This document shows, piece after piece, positions 4,022-21,551 of a stretch of DNA of 64,000 nucleotides. The notes below the pieces were generated by a model. That model was given only the letters and a program-made list of their open reading frames with translations, had not been told where the DNA came from and made no database searches. Source of the stretch: Desulfurococcales archaeon (GTDB taxonomy: Archaea > Thermoproteota > Thermoprotei_A > Sulfolobales > Desulfurococcaceae). The stretch is from positions 248,001-312,000 of the forward strand of contig JALVYU010000026.1 in NCBI GenBank assembly GCA_027022365.1, given 5' to 3'. Each line of letters begins with the position of its first letter. The stretch's first letter is position 1. The translations under genes were made by a program, and so were the position numbers.

Positions 4022-6328
4022 TTAAGATAGCTGTGGGGCTGTTACATGAATATTTATTTCACAACTTAGATAGTCTCCGACATCTTTATCGTAATTTATA
4101 TTCATATATGAGTCACTTGATGTTGCCAGATAGTTCCATTCTATATAGAATGATGCATGTGCTTCATTGACGCGTGTTCCACTACCTGAATAGTAGAATC
4201 TTATCGGTATATCGAGGCTGTTACTGCCAGTATCCATAGTACTCGGGTCAAGTGAATACAGTATTTTATCCGCGATACTAGCGCTTACTCCAATGACTGT
4301 AACTGCGGCTTCAAACACTGTTTCATATGGTATAGGAACTATAAGATCAGCTACAAATAGTATTGTCGAAGCCGCATTGGCGTAATCTTCGATTGCTACC
4401 GCTATGGATCTAGCTTGTGATATTTTCCTGTGAACATCGCTTGTTACATCGTTTTGGTTCATATCATTAGCATATACAACGTTGAAGTCTTTATACCCAA
4501 ATCCTGGCTGACCCTCATTGGGATTATTTGTGCCGACCTTTGCATTGATCTCCATCTTGCTGATCTTATAGTAGTTGCTTGTCGGATGATAGGGGGCTAA
4601 GCAAACAGATTCTTGACAGTACTGGTACCATACTTCCTTAGTGTACCCGAGATATAGACGTATTGTAGCATATTCTAAGTTTTTATTCCAATAGATATCG
4701 TAAATTCCTAGGTAGCCATGGTTGTTTATCCACCAATATCTCTCCTCACCGAATTCCCAGTTATAATACGCTACGGCTTTTGTTCCGTCGAATTCATGTT
4801 CGATATAAAAGTCGACTCTGCTTACATAAGCTTTTATGGGTGGAGGCGTTGGACCATAGTCGTAACATTCAAACTCGATCTTAAGCATGATTGATTCGGC
4901 ATCGCTCGGTATTTCAACGTAGTCTGCTATTTGATGATACTTGCCATCGCTGAGATCGATCCATGGTCCGTATGTGGTGGTAGCGGGGTCTCCTTCAACT
5001 TTATAATAGCCCTCTATTTCTAATAGTATATAACCATTATTGTTACGATGACGTAATTTATCCATTATTTTAAATGCTAAATCAAGTGAGCTACCATTTT
5101 TAATAACGATCTCTTGATCTTTATCGATTAAAGCTTGTAGTACGTTTAATTTTTCTGTACCATCCGAGAGAACCGCTTCGGCGAATTTAAGAGGCTCTAA
5201 TTGTTTCTTTTTAATTTCCTTAACATTATTTGAATCGGCTAGTGCTATGTAATTGATTTTATGAAAGCCCGTTGAGACTATCTTGATCGCTATGTCTCTA
5301 CTATTATGCAGGGGCGTTGCTGATAGATCTATTGCCTCAAGATACCAATTATGCCTAGGCTCTATCGTGGCTATTTTTATCCACTTCCCATTAGAATAAC
5401 CATATATTATTAATGATGTTTTATACAGAACATCCGTACCAAGTAGTAGTAACTTGGGCTTGTGCCCCAGTCTCGGAAAAATAACAGTATATGTATCATT
5501 AGGCCTTGTCGTGATGTAGCCTATGTTCATAAACCATACCTTGAATGCAAAGTTATTACCATATTTATCCAGTACCTTGATTGGTCTGACAAGTCTATTT
5601 TTGTCTTTTATAATAAAGACTTTGCCTGTACTGCTCTCAGAGACAACTATGTCCCCCTTAGTCTTTGTTATATAGTATGCTTTAATATTGTAAATATGGT
5701 CTTCTTCTCCATCTCTTTCTATGATTCTAAATTTAATCTTATTTTCATTTATACTGAATTGACTGGGATAGATCAAGTAATAATCCTTCTTCACCTCAGT
5801 ACCTTTAGCCAGTGGAAGCAGGTTATTGATATATACATATTTTCCATCGATAAAGCTATATAATCGGGGGCAACCACCTCCAGAAGAACCCGTGGATACC
5901 GTTACGGCTATTCTGGCTCTAATCTTCCCGGAAGATGGTTGTTCTGCTCTAACATATGCGTAAAAGAGTACTTTCTCGCTCTTCACAGAGTTTATATGTG
6001 TATTATCAGAGTACTGATATATGGATGCATAACCATTCGTAGAATAAAGGTACAGTGCATAATCTCCTCTAATACCCTTGCCATATGCTCTGCTATAACT
6101 GTCAGCTATAATGTTCCAATAACTAGGATCTCCTTCATGATCGAAAGTTAGACCCTTGAATAATTCACCTACATTATAGTACTTGCTAGGTATTGTAAAA
6201 TCATAGTTATACGGCCCTTCTACTAATGTAGTGGATTCAGCGTGCACTGTCGGAATATAGGCTGGTATAATGACAATAGATAATGTAATGAATATTGCGA
6301 GAAAGGGGATACCTGTCTTCCCCCTCAT
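4022..6328 (-). CDS. Large secreted surface protein
   Basis: A 768-residue protein with a clear signal peptide (residues 1-30, basic start, hydrophobic core, ending 'TVHA'). The rest is rich in beta-strand, tyrosine, asparagine and serine, with many potential N-glycosylation sites, and there is no C-terminal membrane anchor. One region around residues 430-520 resembles a lectin-like or carbohydrate-binding beta-sandwich, but I do not recognise a family. It stands alone, convergent with the ATPase gene and divergent from the next membrane protein. Probably a secreted or surface-attached protein. AT-richer codon use than the ATPase genes suggests a different history. Confidence 0.75.
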   Translation of the reverse strand: MRGKTGIPFLAIFITLSIVIIPAYIPTVHAESTTLVEGPYNYDFTIPSKYYNVGELFKGLTFDHEGDPSYWNIIADSYSRAYGKGIRGDYALYLYSTNGYASIYQYSDNTHINSVKSEKVLFYAYVRAEQPSSGKIRARIAVTVSTGSSGGGCPRLYSFIDGKYVYINNLLPLAKGTEVKKDYYLIYPSQFSINENKIKFRIIERDGEEDHIYNIKAYYITKTKGDIVVSESSTGKVFIIKDKNRLVRPIKVLDKYGNNFAFKVWFMNIGYITTRPNDTYTVIFPRLGHKPKLLLLGTDVLYKTSLIIYGYSNGKWIKIATIEPRHNWYLEAIDLSATPLHNSRDIAIKIVSTGFHKINYIALADSNNVKEIKKKQLEPLKFAEAVLSDGTEKLNVLQALIDKDQEIVIKNGSSLDLAFKIMDKLRHRNNNGYILLEIEGYYKVEGDPATTTYGPWIDLSDGKYHQIADYVEIPSDAESIMLKIEFECYDYGPTPPPIKAYVSRVDFYIEHEFDGTKAVAYYNWEFGEERYWWINNHGYLGIYDIYWNKNLEYATIRLYLGYTKEVWYQYCQESVCLAPYHPTSNYYKISKMEINAKVGTNNPNEGQPGFGYKDFNVVYANDMNQNDVTSDVHRKISQARSIAVAIEDYANAASTILFVADLIVPIPYETVFEAAVTVIGVSASIADKILYSLDPSTMDTGSNSLDIPIRFYYSGSGTRVNEAHASFYIEWNYLATSSDSYMNINYDKDVGDYLSCEINIHVTAPQLS

Positions 6329-6472
6329 ACTCAGGCACCATAGTTTTCTTCACCTAGGGAAATAAATATATCTTATATAAAATGATCATCTAATGTCATG
6401 GAGGTAACATTTATATAAACGTTTCTTTTTCGTGTATTATCGTTAGGAGTTGTTGGTTTTGAAGTGGTTGCA

Positions 6473-7570
6473 ATGCTTCTCAGGAAGTGGATGAAGCTGT
6501 TGTTTATTATTGTTATTGTTGTTGGTTTTGCTCTCTACACTTTCTTCTTCCTCACGTATTACAGATACTATCCTGGGGTATCGGGTAATAACGAGATCAT
6601 AGTTAGCATAGGGAGCGTTAAGAAAGCAGAGGATGTAGTAGAGAGGATACTCGATAAATATTGGGGTAAGGTTGATAAGCTTTGGATCTACAAGACGAAT
6701 ATTTACTGGAGCAGAAAAGACATACAGATCGAATATGATAGTTATCCCCTGAACTACTCGTATGAGTTCCGGGTTTTTATTCTCCGAAAAATACTCGGCC
6801 AGATCGAGGCGAGAACGGAGCTTTATTTTAGGGCGCCTCATCATCCGTGGGATAATGTTACATGGATACAATATGACCGGGTCCACAACAGGCTACTGAT
6901 ATACCATAACGGTATTTTCTCAGGAGATGAGCCATCGGGAGCTGGCAATGTTAATGCACTCTTCTACCTCGATAAGAATAGGTTCGTGATAATCAATCTC
7001 GTACCAGCAGAATACTGCATACCGAACGGAACCAGCCTAACCACCTTCAAATACAACGGAACATATATAAAGCTCCCCAGCCCCTGTAGCCCTAGAGATC
7101 GCGAACATCTAAGATTCTGGTACATTTATTTCGTCCCACCATACATTCACACCTTTACCGAGCCCTATGATGAAGAACTAGCCCCAGTATATATAGCAAA
7201 TATTGTCGTGATAACACATAATATGACGGATAAAGTCTTCATGGACAAGAACTTCAGAGAATATCTTGGGGAATTGAGGCGGCTTAGAGATGAATGGATC
7301 AAGAGGTTCAATGATACTGGGTTCACGGCATTACGGGATGAACATGGAAAAGTGGCCGAACTAGACTTCGACTCGAGAGAAATCCCGCAAACACTGGAAA
7401 ACACGAGGTTCTTCAAGGAGTTCGAGGAAAACCTCACAGATATCCTCTGGCACACGCTCATAAAACCCATCCTACAATACATACATGTCCACGCAAACAG
7501 CCTATGGGACATAATGTTCGCACTACTAATAAACAAGCATGAAGCAATATACCTAGAACCTCTAACGTGA
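6473..7570 (+). CDS. Membrane-anchored protein of unknown function
   Basis: About 365 residues. A basic start is followed by a single membrane segment (about residues 7-31), then a soluble domain that is probably outside the cell and has several potential N-glycosylation sites. No known motif recognised. The ATG at 6473 is preferred over the in-frame GTG at 6464. A TATA-like box (catttatataaacg, near 6409-6421) lies upstream. It is divergent from the secreted protein gene at 4022-6328; the pair may share surface functions. Confidence 0.65.
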   Translation: MLLRKWMKLLFIIVIVVGFALYTFFFLTYYRYYPGVSGNNEIIVSIGSVKKAEDVVERILDKYWGKVDKLWIYKTNIYWSRKDIQIEYDSYPLNYSYEFRVFILRKILGQIEARTELYFRAPHHPWDNVTWIQYDRVHNRLLIYHNGIFSGDEPSGAGNVNALFYLDKNRFVIINLVPAEYCIPNGTSLTTFKYNGTYIKLPSPCSPRDREHLRFWYIYFVPPYIHTFTEPYDEELAPVYIANIVVITHNMTDKVFMDKNFREYLGELRRLRDEWIKRFNDTGFTALRDEHGKVAELDFDSREIPQTLENTRFFKEFEENLTDILWHTLIKPILQYIHVHANSLWDIMFALLINKHEAIYLEPLT

Positions 7571-7955: not shown

Positions 7956-8333
7956 TTACATAAGCATAGGCTCTCTGAATTTGCCTATCTTTTCTAACAA
8001 TACTCTAACTGGTATGATCTCTAGAGTGTTGTCTCGGCCCACGACCAATACCAAGTCGCCTTTCTTGATATCCAGCGATTTAGCGAAAGCCTTGGGTATA
8101 GAGTATACCGCACTTACGTTTGTTTTCCACACTTTAACTTTCTTCACATTCCACGCAGTCTTCTTAACTACACGTACAGCGTACTCTCTACCTATATTGC
8201 TATCGATAGGCACATAAAGAATCCTATCAATACCTAGAACAGCAAACACCTCCTCTCCAGCTGGTACTATGAAGTGTCTAGACGTTATATAGTACGATAC
8301 ATTACCCATAACTTTAAGTACTTTAATGTACAT
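7956..8333 (-). CDS. AbrB/SpoVT-type DNA-binding protein
   Basis: About 125 residues. The C-terminal half carries the swapped-hairpin AbrB signature 'SIPKAFAKSLDIKKGDLVLV', as in archaeal transcription regulators and antitoxins. The N-terminal half (beta-rich, about 65 residues) is not recognised. The ATG at 8333 is preferred to the GTG at 8342. It is divergent from the ParB-DUF488 cassette, so it may regulate it. A second AbrB-type gene lies at 20009-20350. Confidence 0.75.
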   Translation of the reverse strand: MYIKVLKVMGNVSYYITSRHFIVPAGEEVFAVLGIDRILYVPIDSNIGREYAVRVVKKTAWNVKKVKVWKTNVSAVYSIPKAFAKSLDIKKGDLVLVVGRDNTLEIIPVRVLLEKIGKFREPMLM

Positions 8334-8559
8334 ATGTACCACCGGTCAACTCCTATTTTCATCCTAAATAAATACTTACTGAACTCTTAATGAACTTCAT
8401 TTAGAATACTATAAAACTATGGAATAGTATTTCTTTTATATAATTTTTCATTAGTTATACATCATATTGTTAAACTCTATGAGAAGAACAGCTATAATCC
8501 TATACACGTCATATTTTTTATAAGATTAAAGTGGTGATATAGTACTTGGTGTCTCGTAG

Positions 8560-9612
8560 TTGAAAATTCCTATAGGTAAGCTTATTATAAATCCCGAGAT
8601 CGTTGCTAGAACTAAAATTGATGAGGAATACCTTAAGCTTTTAATGAAGAGTCTTAAGGAGGATGGCCAATTACATCCTATTACTGTGAGACCACTACCT
8701 GATGGAAGATATGAAATTATTGATGGTCTTCACAGAGTGGAAGCTGCTAAAAGACTTGGCTGGAAGGACATTGAGGCCAACGTTGTATCAGTAGATGATC
8801 TTGAAGCTAAGTTTCTATCACTTAAGGCTAATCTTGTTAGGAGGAACCTTGAGCCTGTTCAAGAGGGCGAACTGATATACCGTATAATGGTTAAACACAA
8901 ACTTACTGAGAAGCAAGTAGCTGAAAGGCTCGGGGTATCTGTTGAATGGGTTTCAAAGAGACTAGCACTAGTACTTAAGGTACATGAAAAGGTTAGGAAG
9001 CTGGTAGCTGAAGGTAAGTTATCGTTAGGTCACGCTGTAGTTATATCGAGGATCAAGGATCCTACTAAACAAGTAAAGTTCGCTTACTTAATAATAAGAA
9101 ATAGTTGGAGCGTTAAACAAGCAGAGGAAGCACTCATAGAGTTCATAAACGATACCATATTCACGATAGGCTATGAAGGTAGGAGTTTTGAGGAGTTCGT
9201 AGACTTATTGAAGAAGCATGAGATCAAGGTTGTTATGGATATTAGGCATGAAGTAGACTTCGTTAAGCAGGAGTTCTCGGGAGAGCTACTAAAGAGGCAA
9301 CTCCCTGTCTATGGTATCAGATATATTCAGTTGAAGGAGCTTGGAGTACCTAGAATGATAAGAGAGCCATATATAGAGGGTAAACTTTCATTTGAATGCT
9401 TTAAGCAGTGGTATCTATGGTGGATTGAGAAGAATCGTGATGAATGGGAGAAGAAGCTAAGGGAAGCAAAGAGAATAGGGTACATTACTTTACTATGTGT
9501 CGAAAGATATCCTAAGCCACATGGAGCACAGAAACATTACTGTCATAGAGATATCCTTGCTGATTATCTAATAAGACAAGGCTTCTTCGAAAAAAGAGTT
9601 GATATTATATGA
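8560..9612 (+). CDS. ParB-like N-terminal domain / HTH / DUF488 fusion protein
   Basis: A 350-residue fusion. Residues 1-100 are a ParB/sulfiredoxin-type domain with the 'DGLHRVEAAKRLGW' box (residues 55-68); residues 115-137 form a KorB-like helix-turn-helix ('LTEKQVAERLGVSVEWVSK'); from residue 200 a DUF488 domain begins with 'FTIGYEGRSFEEF' and ends with the diagnostic 'CVERYP...CHRDILADYL' near 320-345. ParB-type domains bind CTP, act as nucleases or kinases, and appear in DNA-modification defence systems; DUF488 has no firm function. The TTG start follows a stop codon in frame, with a TATA-like box (tttttataaga) upstream. It heads a tightly packed four-gene operon ending in a nuclease-like gene. 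Confidence 0.88.
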   Translation: MKIPIGKLIINPEIVARTKIDEEYLKLLMKSLKEDGQLHPITVRPLPDGRYEIIDGLHRVEAAKRLGWKDIEANVVSVDDLEAKFLSLKANLVRRNLEPVQEGELIYRIMVKHKLTEKQVAERLGVSVEWVSKRLALVLKVHEKVRKLVAEGKLSLGHAVVISRIKDPTKQVKFAYLIIRNSWSVKQAEEALIEFINDTIFTIGYEGRSFEEFVDLLKKHEIKVVMDIRHEVDFVKQEFSGELLKRQLPVYGIRYIQLKELGVPRMIREPYIEGKLSFECFKQWYLWWIEKNRDEWEKKLREAKRIGYITLLCVERYPKPHGAQKHYCHRDILADYLIRQGFFEKRVDII

Positions 9613-9623
9613 GGGAGGCTACA

Positions 9624-9899
9624 ATGCTTGTAGGCGTTATATATCGAAGTAAAGAGGTAGAGATTCTAGGTATTGAGTTAGTTACATCTAGAGAACTATT
9701 TGGTCAAGCAATATACTGTCCTCTCTGCCGTAAAGAACTTAAGGGATGGAGTGAAGGATGTACAGTATTTCACTTATATTGTGATCACTGCGGTATTGCG
9801 ATAACAGTGGCTAACACCAATATTCTTGAAGATAAAGATCTTAGCGATCTAGAAGCTAAGCTCCTTTCTCTATTCGACGAAATAAGCTCTAGGTGGTAG
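9624..9899 (+). CDS. Small zinc-ribbon protein in ParB-DUF488 cassette
   Basis: About 91 residues. Two CxxC pairs, 'CPLCRKE' and 'CDHCG', with additional His residues between them, indicate a zinc ribbon of about 25 residues in the middle. The ATG at 9624 is preferred because GGGAGG lies 5 bases upstream; the alternative ATG at 9609 overlaps the previous stop codon. It overlaps the next gene's ribosome-binding region. Function unknown; possibly a nucleic-acid-binding partner of its neighbours. Confidence 0.72.
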   Translation: MLVGVIYRSKEVEILGIELVTSRELFGQAIYCPLCRKELKGWSEGCTVFHLYCDHCGIAITVANTNILEDKDLSDLEAKLLSLFDEISSRW

Positions 9900-9901
9900 A
9901 A

Positions 9902-10783
9902 ATGGTTGTCGAGAGGATAATAGTTTTAGCGAAAACGTATCCAGAGCTTAGTTCAAAACATGGTCCACTAGTATGTGTTGCTGGAGTAAATGAGTATAAG
10001 GAGTGGCGTAGACTTTATCCTATACCGCTTAAGATATGGATAAACGAGAAGTATGAGGATATAAGATTCAGGAAATGGGATAAAATAGAAGTTGAAGTTA
10101 GTGAGAAACCGCCACCACATGATAGAAGATCTGAGAGTAGACGCGTGATTAACTGGAAGAACATAAGGGTTGTAGGCCATATAAAGGATTGGGAAACTAG
10201 GTTAGCCGTAATTAAAGAGCTACTTGATCCAGATATAGAATCGATCATTAATTCTGGTAGGAGTTTAGGTGTTATAAAACCTGCTAAAGTATTAGACTTC
10301 TTCAGTAAGCCTAGGCATAGGCTTAGAGATGAAGCTGAGAAAGAAGTTCTGAAGAAGATGGATGAAGCTGATAGCACGGTAACACTCCTAGAATATCTTG
10401 AGATAGGTGATAAGTACCTACTACCTGAGGTAAGGGAACCTGACGTTAAGGTAGAAGAACTTCCATGGATAGGCTACAAGTTTTACTGTGGTAATCCTCG
10501 ATGCAGAGGACATGAGATGATGGTTATTGACTGGGAAGCGCAGGAACTATTCCGCAAGTATAGGACTGTTGAAGGACCGGTAAAACAGAAGTTGTTCAAT
10601 GAGCTAGTGTTTAAGAGGGATCTCTACTTCATAGTAGGTAATACGTGGAAGTATCACAAATCCTTCATGATAATAGGCTTGTTCTACCCACCAAAAGGAA
10701 CAGTTCCAGTAAAGCCGCTCGTACCAATATTCAAGGATAAACCAAAGCAGAAGACTCTCTTCGATATCCTGCAACAAAGGTGA
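9902..10783 (+). CDS. Uncharacterised conserved protein with a YPIP motif
   Basis: About 293 residues. The N-terminus reads 'LAKTYPELSSKHGPLVCVAG' followed by 'EWRRLYPIPLK', then an acidic/basic segment 'HDRRSESRR'; I recall this pattern from a widespread uncharacterised family that travels with DUF488 and nuclease genes, but cannot name it. Near residues 196-210 'CGNPRCRGHEMMVIDWE' looks like a metal-binding knuckle (two Cys, one His). The start at ATG 9902 is preceded by aggtgg; the upstream stop codon is within 5 bases. The role is unknown. Context suggests it acts with the ParB-DUF488 protein and the nuclease. Confidence 0.75.
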   Translation: MVVERIIVLAKTYPELSSKHGPLVCVAGVNEYKEWRRLYPIPLKIWINEKYEDIRFRKWDKIEVEVSEKPPPHDRRSESRRVINWKNIRVVGHIKDWETRLAVIKELLDPDIESIINSGRSLGVIKPAKVLDFFSKPRHRLRDEAEKEVLKKMDEADSTVTLLEYLEIGDKYLLPEVREPDVKVEELPWIGYKFYCGNPRCRGHEMMVIDWEAQELFRKYRTVEGPVKQKLFNELVFKRDLYFIVGNTWKYHKSFMIIGLFYPPKGTVPVKPLVPIFKDKPKQKTLFDILQQR

Positions 10784-10795
10784 AAGGATGATAAT

Positions 10796-11317
10796 ATGCC
10801 TACAATGTTCGAAAACGAAGAACAAATGAAAGAACTGCTAATAAGATGGCTGAGAGACAACGGGTTCATAACAAGGAGAGGACTATATGTTAAGAATTTT
10901 GAAATAGATGTAGCTGCACTAGCCTCAGCGAGGATAACTAGAGAGGGAATAAGACTAGTCAGAGATAGATATGTGTACGCGTTCGAAACCAAGGTTGCTA
11001 CAACATATAAACTTATAAAAGAGGTTGTCGAACAAGCGATCATAAGGCTGTTAGCAGTAGACTATGTCTATATAGTTGTACCTAAAATAGCCGAGATTTG
11101 GAAAGATGGAACAACTAAGGACATTATAACGCCTCCTATCAATGTTAAGAAGATAGCTTCAGGAACATACTCTAAAAACATAGGAATCATAGCAATAGAG
11201 CCCAACGGAACAATCGAAATAACCAGAACAGCACGAAAATCTGGACTAACAATAAAAGAACTAAGAAATCTCGTCATAAGAGAGCTAAGAGGAGAAAACA
11301 TAAGACCATTATATTGA
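10796..11317 (+). CDS. PD-(D/E)XK-like nuclease candidate
   Basis: 173 residues. An N-terminal helix ('ENEEQMKELLIRWLRDNGF'), then 'NFEIDVAAL' with Asp38 and 'YVYAFETKVA' with Glu64-x-Lys66, is the order of catalytic residues in PD-(D/E)XK restriction-type nucleases; a following helix and 'VDYVYIVVP' fit the same fold. It is the last gene of the ParB-DUF488 cassette, 12 bases after the previous stop. The C-terminal 50 residues are basic and may bind DNA. The fold call is by eye. A catalytic role in nucleic-acid cleavage or defence is inference. Confidence 0.65.
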   Translation: MPTMFENEEQMKELLIRWLRDNGFITRRGLYVKNFEIDVAALASARITREGIRLVRDRYVYAFETKVATTYKLIKEVVEQAIIRLLAVDYVYIVVPKIAEIWKDGTTKDIITPPINVKKIASGTYSKNIGIIAIEPNGTIEITRTARKSGLTIKELRNLVIRELRGENIRPLY

Positions 11318-11406
11318 CAAATTATCATTTTTAGCACTAGAGTAGTCATGATATACCAATCATTTTAATCTAAGTGAGATCGAGATTATGTGAATCATAG
11401 ATATAG

Positions 11407-11496
11407 CTACTTGCTGAAACGGATAGGAACGGGGTGTTTGATATAGCCTTTCCTGCGGAGATTCTCCACGAGCACTGCTTTATGGGGCCTGGCCAT
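11407..11496 (-). CDS. 29-aa basic microprotein with its own RBS
   Basis: A short frame starting 'MARPHKAVLVENL' and ending '...RFSK'. It has a strong Shine-Dalgarno (gggggaggtg) about 4 bases before the ATG, and a TATA-like ctttaaaaga about 40 bases upstream. These signals are too good for most chance frames. The peptide is strongly basic and has no recognised family; it may also be a truncated gene start. It is followed by AT-rich DNA towards the nuclease gene, with which it is convergent. Confidence 0.4.
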   Translation of the reverse strand: MARPHKAVLVENLRRKGYIKHPVPIRFSK

Positions 11497-11513
11497 GATG
11501 CACCTCCCCCTTA

Positions 11514-11843
11514 CTAAGCCGTAGGGGATCTTTTAAAGCTGAATCTAAGGACTTTTTCGCTAGGGCAGAGGTTCTGATCCCTATATGGGCAGTGGATGTA
11601 GTCGTAGATTCTACAGGGTTCTGGGTGGTGGATCGTTGCGTGGATTATTTCTCAGCATACCTTGCATTTCCCGATTACTTCGCCTCTACGAGTAATGATG
11701 TGTTGTCCGGGTTTGAGCTTGAGGGTTTTCAGGGTTAGAGTGTATATCCGGACTATTTTCCCCGCCTCGTGTTTACTCTTTAGACTTAAGAGTATAAACT
11801 TTATACTCTTAAGTCTAAAGAGTAAAATATCACTGTGATCCAT
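11514..11843 (-). pseudogene. Cys-rich small protein frame split by one in-frame TGA
   Basis: One reading frame runs from about 11843 to a TAG at 11514-11516, interrupted only by a TGA at 11652-11654. The part before ends 'RRGEVIGKCKVC'; the part after continues with 'HHPEPCRIYDYIHCPY' and 'NLCPSEK', so Cys and His residues on both sides suggest a single metal-binding protein that lost its continuity. The start is uncertain because the upstream end runs through a perfect 25-bp inverted repeat. No TGA-recoding machinery is expected in crenarchaea, so nonsense mutation is the simplest reading. The upstream portion could still be made as a protein of up to 63 residues. Confidence 0.45.
11772..11826. 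repeat. Perfect 25-bp inverted repeat with 5-bp spacer in divergent promoter region
   Basis: Left arm 11772-11796 (starts tttactctttagacttaag) and right arm 11802-11826 are exact reverse complements, separated by 5 bases. Each arm contains a TATA-like element (agtataaa). It lies between the frame at 11514-11843 on the minus strand and the pilus platform gene on the plus strand, so it could be a symmetrical divergent promoter/operator or an RNA hairpin. It overlaps the 5' end of the minus-strand reading frame. Confidence 0.85.
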
Positions 11844-17043: not shown

Positions 17044-17772
17044 TCATTCTATCTCCCATATCTTCAACCCGCATCCTTCGTAAGTATTCTGTCCGGGGCA
17101 CCTCCTAATTCTCGGCTCTATGGTGAGGAATGCTTTTTCGAAATCAAAACTTTGCCATCTATACTGTTTCGTAACTATGTATCTAGTCAGATATGCCACA
17201 TAGTCGGCTATCTGGATCGCTGGTTCTAAGTGGGAGTAGGAGAAGGTGATGTATGTTCTATATGTTGGATTTGCGAGTGCTTCTTCTATACCCTTCTCGA
17301 TATCATGTCTAATATTTGCATCTTCGCGTAGATTCTTTGAATCAAATATGATGAGCGCTATGTTTTCATCTGCTCTAGTCATATATAGTCTCTCGACAAG
17401 GAGTTTTAATGCATGTTTTCTTATACCTCGGGCCCTCTTCTTCGAAATCTCTACTCCTGGTCTTGATTTAACAACAGCTACAATATTTAGTACTATGTCA
17501 AGCCTTGAAACGAGTTCGGCGATTTCTTGAAATATCCTTGCCCTATCCCGCATGGGGAGTCTCCACGGAGAATTCCCCTTAACCAGATGCTTGGTATGGA
17601 CCTCATTAACCCGGATACCATATTGATTATTAATATGTGAGAGGAAACGCGAGAAACTACTATCAACTACACCAAGTTTATCCTCACAGACGGCGACAGA
17701 TGACAAAATATATGGGCCTTCATCGAGCTGAAGAGGATCACCCGACTCGTCAACAAATATTAATAGCGTCAA
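17044..17772 (-). CDS. DUF3800 family protein (RNase H-like fold)
   Basis: 242 residues. It opens with 'LLIFVDESGDP', the DUF3800 hallmark, and ends with the conserved 'AIQIADYVAYLTRY'; central Asp in 'LIIFDSKNL' fits an RNase H-like active site. Such proteins are widespread in mobile and defence contexts but biochemically uncharacterised. It stands alone, convergent with the pilus surface gene, with the twin hairpin between them. Confidence 0.88.
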   Translation of the reverse strand: MTLLIFVDESGDPLQLDEGPYILSSVAVCEDKLGVVDSSFSRFLSHINNQYGIRVNEVHTKHLVKGNSPWRLPMRDRARIFQEIAELVSRLDIVLNIVAVVKSRPGVEISKKRARGIRKHALKLLVERLYMTRADENIALIIFDSKNLREDANIRHDIEKGIEEALANPTYRTYITFSYSHLEPAIQIADYVAYLTRYIVTKQYRWQSFDFEKAFLTIEPRIRRCPGQNTYEGCGLKIWEIE

Positions 17773-20025: not shown

Positions 20026-20350
20026 CTTCCCCCTCCTTGAAAGGCTCTATTATTATCTTGTCGCCGTCCCCGCGTATTTTTACCAGTTCATACTTATCCA
20101 GGCCGGTTTTCTCTGCTAGTTCCCAGGGTATGTTTACCCTGTACTGTCCCCGCCCTTTGGTCGGCTTCACGACGTAGTAGTCTATACGCTTGACCACCAG
20201 CTTATCGTCCTGGACCGTTACCAGGACCCGCTCTCCTTCTTTGAAGGGGGCTTTATCCTCACCAATATACAGTCTCAGCTTCCCCCTCCCCACATCCACT
20301 ACCCTGACCGGGCCCATGCCCCGTCTAAGCACAATCTTATCACTGGTCAT
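20009..20350 (-). CDS. AbrB-like DNA-binding protein
   Basis: 113 residues from ATG 20350. The C-terminus 'GQYRVNIPWELAEKTGLDKY' followed by 'ELVKIRGDGDKIIIEPF' is an AbrB/SpoVT swapped-hairpin domain. It overlaps the end of the decayed helicase and the start of the transglutaminase-like gene. Possibly a regulator of the latter. An N-terminal 60-residue beta-rich part is not recognised. Confidence 0.75.
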   Translation of the reverse strand: MTSDKIVLRRGMGPVRVVDVGRGKLRLYIGEDKAPFKEGERVLVTVQDDKLVVKRIDYYVVKPTKGRGQYRVNIPWELAEKTGLDKYELVKIRGDGDKIIIEPFKEGEDENNT

Positions 20351-21551
20351 CAACACTATTTCCAAGGAGCCCGGCTTCAGGTATATCGACGCCTTCTTCC
20401 CCGACAAGTGTAGATATGATAACATCTACCTCGCCACTTTTAGCCTTCTTAACAAGTTTTAGTCGCTCTTCCTTCTTCGTATCACTTGTTAAAACGGCTA
20501 CTTCATCGTCAGAGAACCCCATGTGGTTAACAATTGTTCTTTGGAATTCCTTAGCAGTAGCTTTACGAGATGTATATACCAGTACTGGCTTCAGGTTATC
20601 ATTTTCTTTAATACCATAGACCGTTAAAATATCAATTAATATTCGAGCTTTATGCGAGGGTTCACTCGAGTTGTATAGTTCGTCGAGGTCTCTATGGGGT
20701 ATTATCTTGTTTCTTTCGATGGCTCTCCTGTAGCTTTCACGGAATGCTTCCTTACCGTATCTTGATAGTGTTGACTCGAGGAACTTAATTATCTTGGGAT
20801 CTCCACTAGGTAGTGCTCTGAATAGGGCATTGTAGACCTTGTTTTCGAGATCGCTCATTTCTGCATCGAACAGGTCTGCTATGGCTTTTGGAGGCTTGAA
20901 GTTAGGGTCCATTTCTTCTAATCTCCTGAAATCATACGATAAGAGATGAGGATCACCGGTCACTTCTACAACTCCAAGGTCTAGCCGGTACCTCTTATAA
21001 CTGGGTAGTAGAGCCGTAAAACCAATTATAATATCCGGCTTGAGCTCCGTGAGTAGTTCCATGTAGTATTTCCCGCCAAAAAGCATGGTGTACCTCATCA
21101 ATTATTATCATTCTGAAGTCTTCCTTGAGAATAGATGTACATTTGAGGGCCGTCTGTGGTGTTGATATAACAATTCTTTTGCCAAGTTCAAGAAAGCTAT
21201 TACAGTTTCCCTCATATTCTTTACCGACGAGATCCCCGAATACTCTACTCCATAAGCCACATTCCCTTCCTCTCCCATACATTTGGTCACAGAGAAATCT
21301 GGTAGGCTCAATACAAGTATACGAGGGATACCATGTTGGAGACCGTAAAATGCCGTAAACATCTCGAGTAATGTTTTACCGCTACCAGTAGGCATAGAGA
21401 CTATAATAAACCTTGAACCTCTTTCTATAGCTCCAATAACTTCATTAGCAACATGTTCCTGATACTTTCTAAGCTTAAAACCAAGTATATTATAAACACG
21501 ATCATTGAAAGAGCCGAGTAAACTGCTCATATCCAAGGCCTTACGATACAT
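20340..21551 (-). pseudogene. Decayed superfamily 2 helicase
   Basis: Motif I 'MPTGSGKTLLEM' lies in the first part (21551 downwards), 'PTRFLCDQM' and motif II 'IIIDEVHHAF' in a second frame, and 'VLVYTSRKATAKEF' plus 'VGEEGVDIPEAGLL' in a third. Two single-base shifts break it: one near 21312 just before the PTR motif and one in a T5 run near 21080. The C-terminus stops after motif V, so motif VI is missing and an AbrB gene overlaps its end. It is a pseudogene unless the shifts are sequence errors. Next to a decayed integrase, it probably derives from a lost mobile element. Confidence 0.8.

Follow-up and report, generated by a model that had tools for sequence, protein, structure and literature searches.

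The window analysed here is a 64,000-nucleotide stretch (G000:C26:248001-312000) of the 1.74-Mb genome of a Desulfurococcales archaeon. An ORF check confirmed four open reading frames at positions 8560-11317 of its forward strand. Gene 1 (8560..9612, 350 aa, TTG start) encodes a fusion of a CTPase-type ParB_N domain, an HTH_ParB domain and a DUF488 domain (9142..9609), and gene 2 (9609..9899, 96 aa) encodes a zinc-ribbon protein. These are followed by gene 3 (9893..10783), encoding the YPIP protein with a predicted tandem OB-fold of the single-stranded DNA-binding kind, and by gene 4 (10796..11317, 173 aa), encoding a predicted PD-(D/E)XK nuclease. Genes 1 and 2 overlap by 4 nt, genes 2 and 3 overlap by 7 nt, and genes 3 and 4 are separated by 12 nt, which is the arrangement that the initial annotation had given; the YPIP protein, from its GTG start, measures 296 residues rather than the 294 stated there. 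The claim that the genes lie in an accessory block between an AbrB regulator and broken frames, within a pilus locus, also held. A divergent AbrB/MazE-fold gene (7956..8342, minus strand; PF04014, 6.6e-7) stands upstream, no solid frames are found in the window directly 3' of gene 4 (11318-11834), and the GC content of the cassette is 0.39, compared with 0.465-0.486 in the flanking pilus-type genes. In L002, an Acidilobaceae MAG, a 57% identical homolog of the AbrB-type protein occupies the corresponding position, and a fragment persists in another copy (L004); the protein probably regulates the cassette. In the comparison with the Acidilobaceae MAG, the dN/dS ratios of about 0.04 to 0.16 (gene 1, dN 0.07 and dS 1.8; gene 3, dN 0.13 and dS 2.6; gene 4, dN 0.40 and dS 2.5), obtained with dS near saturation, indicate that the three genes are under purifying selection.

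The same low-GC insert holds a gene for a 768-aa predicted secreted protein (4022-6328, minus strand) and one for a 368-aa membrane protein (6464-7570, plus strand), neither of which could be assigned to a family. The former is missing from five same-genus genomes, and an empty-site comparison of the flanks in same-genus genomes recovered only distant copies of the pilus gene. A nearly perfect (98%) 55-nt palindrome lies at 11772-11826, just upstream of a GspF/TadC-like gene at 11835; it is single-copy in the genome and is thus not a repeated element end. The stretch of pilus-type genes also includes a DUF3800 protein (17044-17772, minus strand; 8.6e-12). Further along, at 20340-21551 on the minus strand, a helicase appears to be split across two frames (N-terminal motor at 21108-21551; Helicase_C at 20340-21101, PF00271, 2.3e-11) and is possibly a broken gene.

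The union of ParB, helix-turn-helix and DUF488 domains in the gene 1 product was borne out by Pfam, with all three matches exceeding the curated cut-offs (ParB_N, PF02195, 1.1e-13; HTH_ParB, 1.8e-19; DUF488, 7.9e-17). The GxxRxxA P-motif of ParB_N is retained, and its G56, H58, R59 and A62 are invariant across five archaeal copies. A recent study (PMC12704722) showed in vitro CTP binding by one archaeal ParB fusion with HTH and DUF488, and the P-motif arginine is the residue mutated there for the binding-null control. Together with the GxxR motif kept in gene 1, this CTP binding leads us to propose CTP-dependent DNA docking. Canonical ParABS partition was considered and rejected, as no ParA is annotated near the copies on plasmids pSOG1, pBEU9E1 and PL100 or among the searched neighbors in the window. 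In the DUF488 domain, alignment identified GY, DxR, LG, CxE and CHR as invariant, and the C-x-E...C-H-R set is shared by all five archaeal copies. The invariant D-x-R, C-x-E and C-H-R residues suggest an enzyme, and in Pfam one subclade of DUF488 is itself split into families labeled 'active' and 'inactive'. The domain was modeled with high scores (pLDDT 93, pTM 0.88); a search of this model against the PDB found no fold match at E<=0.001, and the best hits, weak at E 0.011, were corrinoid adenosyltransferase, dual-specificity phosphatases and KaiC. In Gordonia phage Nymphadora, the DUF488 gene gp42 (NC_031061.1 33857-34249) is annotated as 'HipA toxin', a name to which its sequence gives no support.

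The gene 3 product has no Pfam family, and no protein in the PDB resembles it significantly in sequence; it matches the PADLOC model for PDC-M19B (PDLC04508, 2.4e-41). An AlphaFold2 model built from six sequences (pLDDT 68, pTM 0.72), in which the N-terminal beta barrel is the best-modeled part, was compared with the PDB. The leading matches were almost all tandem-OB proteins, binders of single-stranded or telomeric DNA, including archaeal RPA (E 8.8e-4), LEF-3, CST, HIN-200, Teb1, TEBP and POT1. The E-values are about 1e-3 and the TM-scores are low (0.17-0.32), as would be expected from a different placement of the two OB folds, and we accordingly treat the OB match as a lead and not as proof. 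In the same direction, the Pfam Dual OB-containing domain (DuOB) weakly matched five of the 11 YPIP family members (best 5.8e-4), the one match with bits displayed being sub-cut-off (18.6 versus 27). We describe the YPIP protein as a predicted dual OB-fold protein resembling single-stranded DNA binders. Its invariant residues include C28, R40, P43, D77-x-R79-x-E81-S82, R103 and P130.

Gene 4 yielded no Pfam match and no PDB sequence match. The Asp38 and Glu64-x-Lys66 singled out in the initial annotation are indeed invariant in five cassette copies, as are E8, E36-I-D38, Q80 and R84. Orphan relatives retain D38, Q80 and R84; in the remote relatives L090 and L091, the D, Q and FE-x-K positions are conserved, and L089 has D-x-R in place of (D/E)-x-K. 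By this conserved residue pattern, gene 4 likely encodes a PD-(D/E)XK nuclease. An hhalign profile comparison of gene 4 with Hjc and with Mrr (the latter an alignment of four sequences, at least one of them doubtful) gave no match, and neither did the positive control, Hjc against Mrr.

Recurrence of the four genes together had been set beforehand as the test of a joint system. Using tblastn, we found genes 1, 3 and 4 in the same order in the window, two MAGs and two Sulfolobales plasmids, and the zinc gene proved optional. Identities to the window for genes 1, 3 and 4, respectively, are 87, 78 and 51% in the Acidilobaceae MAG, 74, 61 and 51% in a Culexmicrobium MAG (L003, the same as L006), where the N-terminus of gene 1 is cut or diverged, 52, 57 and 39% in pSOG1, and 51, 54 and 35% in pBEU9E1. 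The plasmid cassettes differ from that of the window in being plasmid-borne, in lacking the zinc gene and in having a short unrelated ORF upstream instead of AbrB. Gene 2 carries two CxxC pairs (C37-x2-C40 and C58-x2-C61) and gives only weak zinc-ribbon matches in Pfam. A 38% identical homolog that keeps both pairs lies between genes 1 and 3 in the Culexmicrobium MAG, and the gene is absent from the cassettes of the Acidilobaceae MAG, pSOG1 and pBEU9E1; it is an optional member outside the conserved core. Two further copies are reduced. Plasmid pSOG2 retains genes 3 and 4 with gene 1 cut down to a 34-residue stub, which counts against the reading favored below, and in the decayed L004 locus an AbrB fragment continues directly into the final third of gene 3, while gene 4 is interrupted by a stop. 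Searches of 300 genomes from the phylum and of 229 from the class each recovered the YPIP family in 3, and five same-genus genomes lack it, a patchy and rare occurrence that fits horizontal acquisition.

Beyond the archaea, gene 3 relatives were found on bacterial plasmids, in seven Gordonia phage records and on IMG/VR contigs; scans of viral contigs returned no matches when the query was gene 4 or a single gene 3 sequence. In 22 distinct loci, distributed over archaea, plasmids, prophage-like contigs and a temperate Gordonia phage, YPIP has DUF488 as its neighbor; this sample was picked by similarity to gene 3 rather than counted genome-wide, and it draws on 15 of the 22 plasmid records. Ten of these loci are tandem with DUF488 first, three are tandem with YPIP first and nine are convergent, often with overlap. 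That one pair occurs in three arrangements points to a functional link and not to descent from one ancestral operon. In the Gordonia phage, the pair stands beside an immunity repressor and an integrase; in viral contig L020, its neighbors read by eye as an XRE-like repressor and an HExxH-type peptidase; and on Haloquadratum plasmid PL100, it adjoins a restriction endonuclease and two methyltransferases. Such locations, like that of YPIP near a HerA ATPase in locus L092 (below), are typical of conflict cargo. Bacterial homologs also lie in plasmid cargo regions, some of them next to metal-resistance genes. The repressor beside the pair in Gordonia phage Eviarto (gp44; L011 4018-4968) has an HTH and then a C-terminal part with, by eye, the look of a degenerate PD-(D/E)XK domain. 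Exceptions to the adjacency are the pSOG2 and L004 remnants and locus L092 (G154:C42:22000-32000), where a ParB-ASCH protein (PF04266, 3.6e-7) replaces the DUF488 protein before YPIP and is followed, after YPIP, by a long protein, NurA-like by reading and unmatched in Pfam, and then by a HerA ATPase (DUF87, 3e-15). This locus is possibly a separate DNA-conflict island; a GIY-YIG-like protein, recognized by eye, lies upstream of it.

Residues 185-341 of gene 1 match the PDC-M19A model (PDLC04505, 3.9e-20), and the pSOG1 and Gordonia phage proteins also match PDC-M19 models in PADLOC. On balance, and with modest confidence, we favor the reading that the cassette is PDC-M19, a candidate antiviral pair, in an archaeal and mobile-element-borne form to which a nuclease and a front end for DNA docking have been added. 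Gene 1 would use its ParB_N/HTH part to bind an NTP, probably CTP, and to load on DNA, thereby bringing the putative DUF488 enzyme to it. An element that is entering or replicating might then have its single-stranded DNA held by the YPIP tandem OB protein and cut by the gene 4 protein; the presumed targets are competing plasmids or viruses, and the zinc protein could serve as an optional adaptor. The proposal that these genes form a defense module is partly supported by the PDC-M19 candidacy of DUF488 plus YPIP, by the recurrence of the genes together and by the mobile-element placements; the window copy itself lies in a pilus-type locus with no known defense genes around it, which counts against a defense reading. 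In addition, the nuclease gene was seen only in Thermoproteota versions of the cassette, and neither it nor the zinc-ribbon gene accompanies any bacterial pair examined. The core pair must therefore work without the nuclease elsewhere, which counts against a nuclease-based reading. A more ambitious version, which we consider improbable, is a new archaeal immunity in which a ParB clamp switched by CTP would mark or patrol DNA and hand invader single strands to the dual-OB protein for destruction by the dedicated nuclease, with DUF488 adding a further reaction on DNA or nucleotides. The alternative idea of a DNA-modification module did not stand, since the cassette contains no methyltransferase, Dnd or similar gene, and a Dnd, BREX or R-M system was rejected because the four genes include no modification domain.

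The architectures of DUF488 raise a different possibility, namely a toxin-antitoxin-like or lysogeny-control pair in which the DUF488 protein controls or neutralizes the action of YPIP on DNA and so stabilizes the mobile element. Besides the archaeal fusion to ParB-HTH, which extends to a Haloquadratum PL100 copy of about 35% identity, DUF488 is joined to an XRE HTH (L013) or to Panacea-like, antitoxin-type domains (L016 and L017; in L017, PF13274 at 2.2e-4, under its bit cut-off), and pairs are located in phage repressor regions. Nevertheless, the domain also occurs alone and has the enzyme-like invariant C-x-E...C-H-R, the genes are often convergent rather than in a co-regulated operon, and YPIP looks like a binding protein, not a toxin; we regard this explanation as unlikely. 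Plasmid maintenance or replication control, with ParB acting without ParA to set copy number or segregation and with the OB protein and nuclease serving replication or conjugation, would suit the presence of the cassette on pSOG1 and pBEU9E1, where the gene is annotated as a partition protein, and the HTH in the ParB core. We consider it quite unlikely, since no annotated parA lies beside any copy examined, the window genome carries a chromosomal copy that same-genus relatives lack, and the bacterial homologs reside in phages and plasmid cargo regions. Finally, a housekeeping DNA-repair module for end resection or gap processing, to which the HerA and NurA-like neighbors of YPIP in L092 and the repair-like OB fold and nuclease might point, is very improbable for genes that are so rare and patchy, often mobile and, in L004, decayed.

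Returning to the PDC-M19 reading, PADLOC's PDCs derive from guilt-by-embedding and most are unvalidated (PMC12988326). For PDC-M19, we found no defense assay in the open-licence literature, and nothing relevant there on PDC-M19, COG5483 or DuOB; its label is guilt by association. The DUF488-YPIP pair as a PDC-M19 candidate and the ParB-DUF488 fusion are already known, and the word 'undescribed' in the initial annotation was therefore too strong: the core pair is in PADLOC, and CTP binding by an archaeal ParB-HTH-DUF488 protein has been shown (PMC12704722). Three points may be new, in that we found no description of them in the open-licence literature: the nuclease-bearing archaeal cassette, a pairing that holds in archaea, plasmids and phages whatever the gene orientation, and the prediction of tandem OB folds for M19B. 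Little is known of archaeal immunity other than CRISPR and restriction-modification, and few systems are recognized in Thermoproteota (PMC12988326). The cassette unites a predicted CTP-dependent DNA clamp, an unexplained Cys/Glu/Cys-His-Arg enzyme domain, a predicted single-strand binder and a likely nuclease; for the M19B protein, a predicted fold can now be proposed. Conjugative plasmids carry the cassette in an experimentally tractable host group (Sulfolobus), so that the role of DUF488 and the PDC-M19 candidacy can both be tested directly.

Other known groups share parts with the cassette. The tandem OB-fold single-stranded DNA binders (RPA, POT1, CST and LEF-3; DuOB) have the fold predicted for gene 3, whereas gene 3 has invariant residues of its own and a C-terminal Cys/His region. 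Among the ParB-CTPase fold fusions (PMC12704722, PNAS 2025), the archaeal DUF488-HTH fusion has the same domain set as gene 1, and the available part of that paper does not mention its neighboring genes or its function. A further parallel is PDC-M19, composed of the DUF488 protein M19A and M19B, whose two core proteins strongly match window genes 1 and 3 and are encoded by adjacent genes. In the window, one small gene separates the M19A and M19B genes, and none does so in the Acidilobaceae MAG, pSOG1 or pBEU9E1. Relative to PDC-M19, window gene 1 adds a ParB_N-HTH front end, and the zinc-ribbon and PD-(D/E)XK-like genes are further additions.
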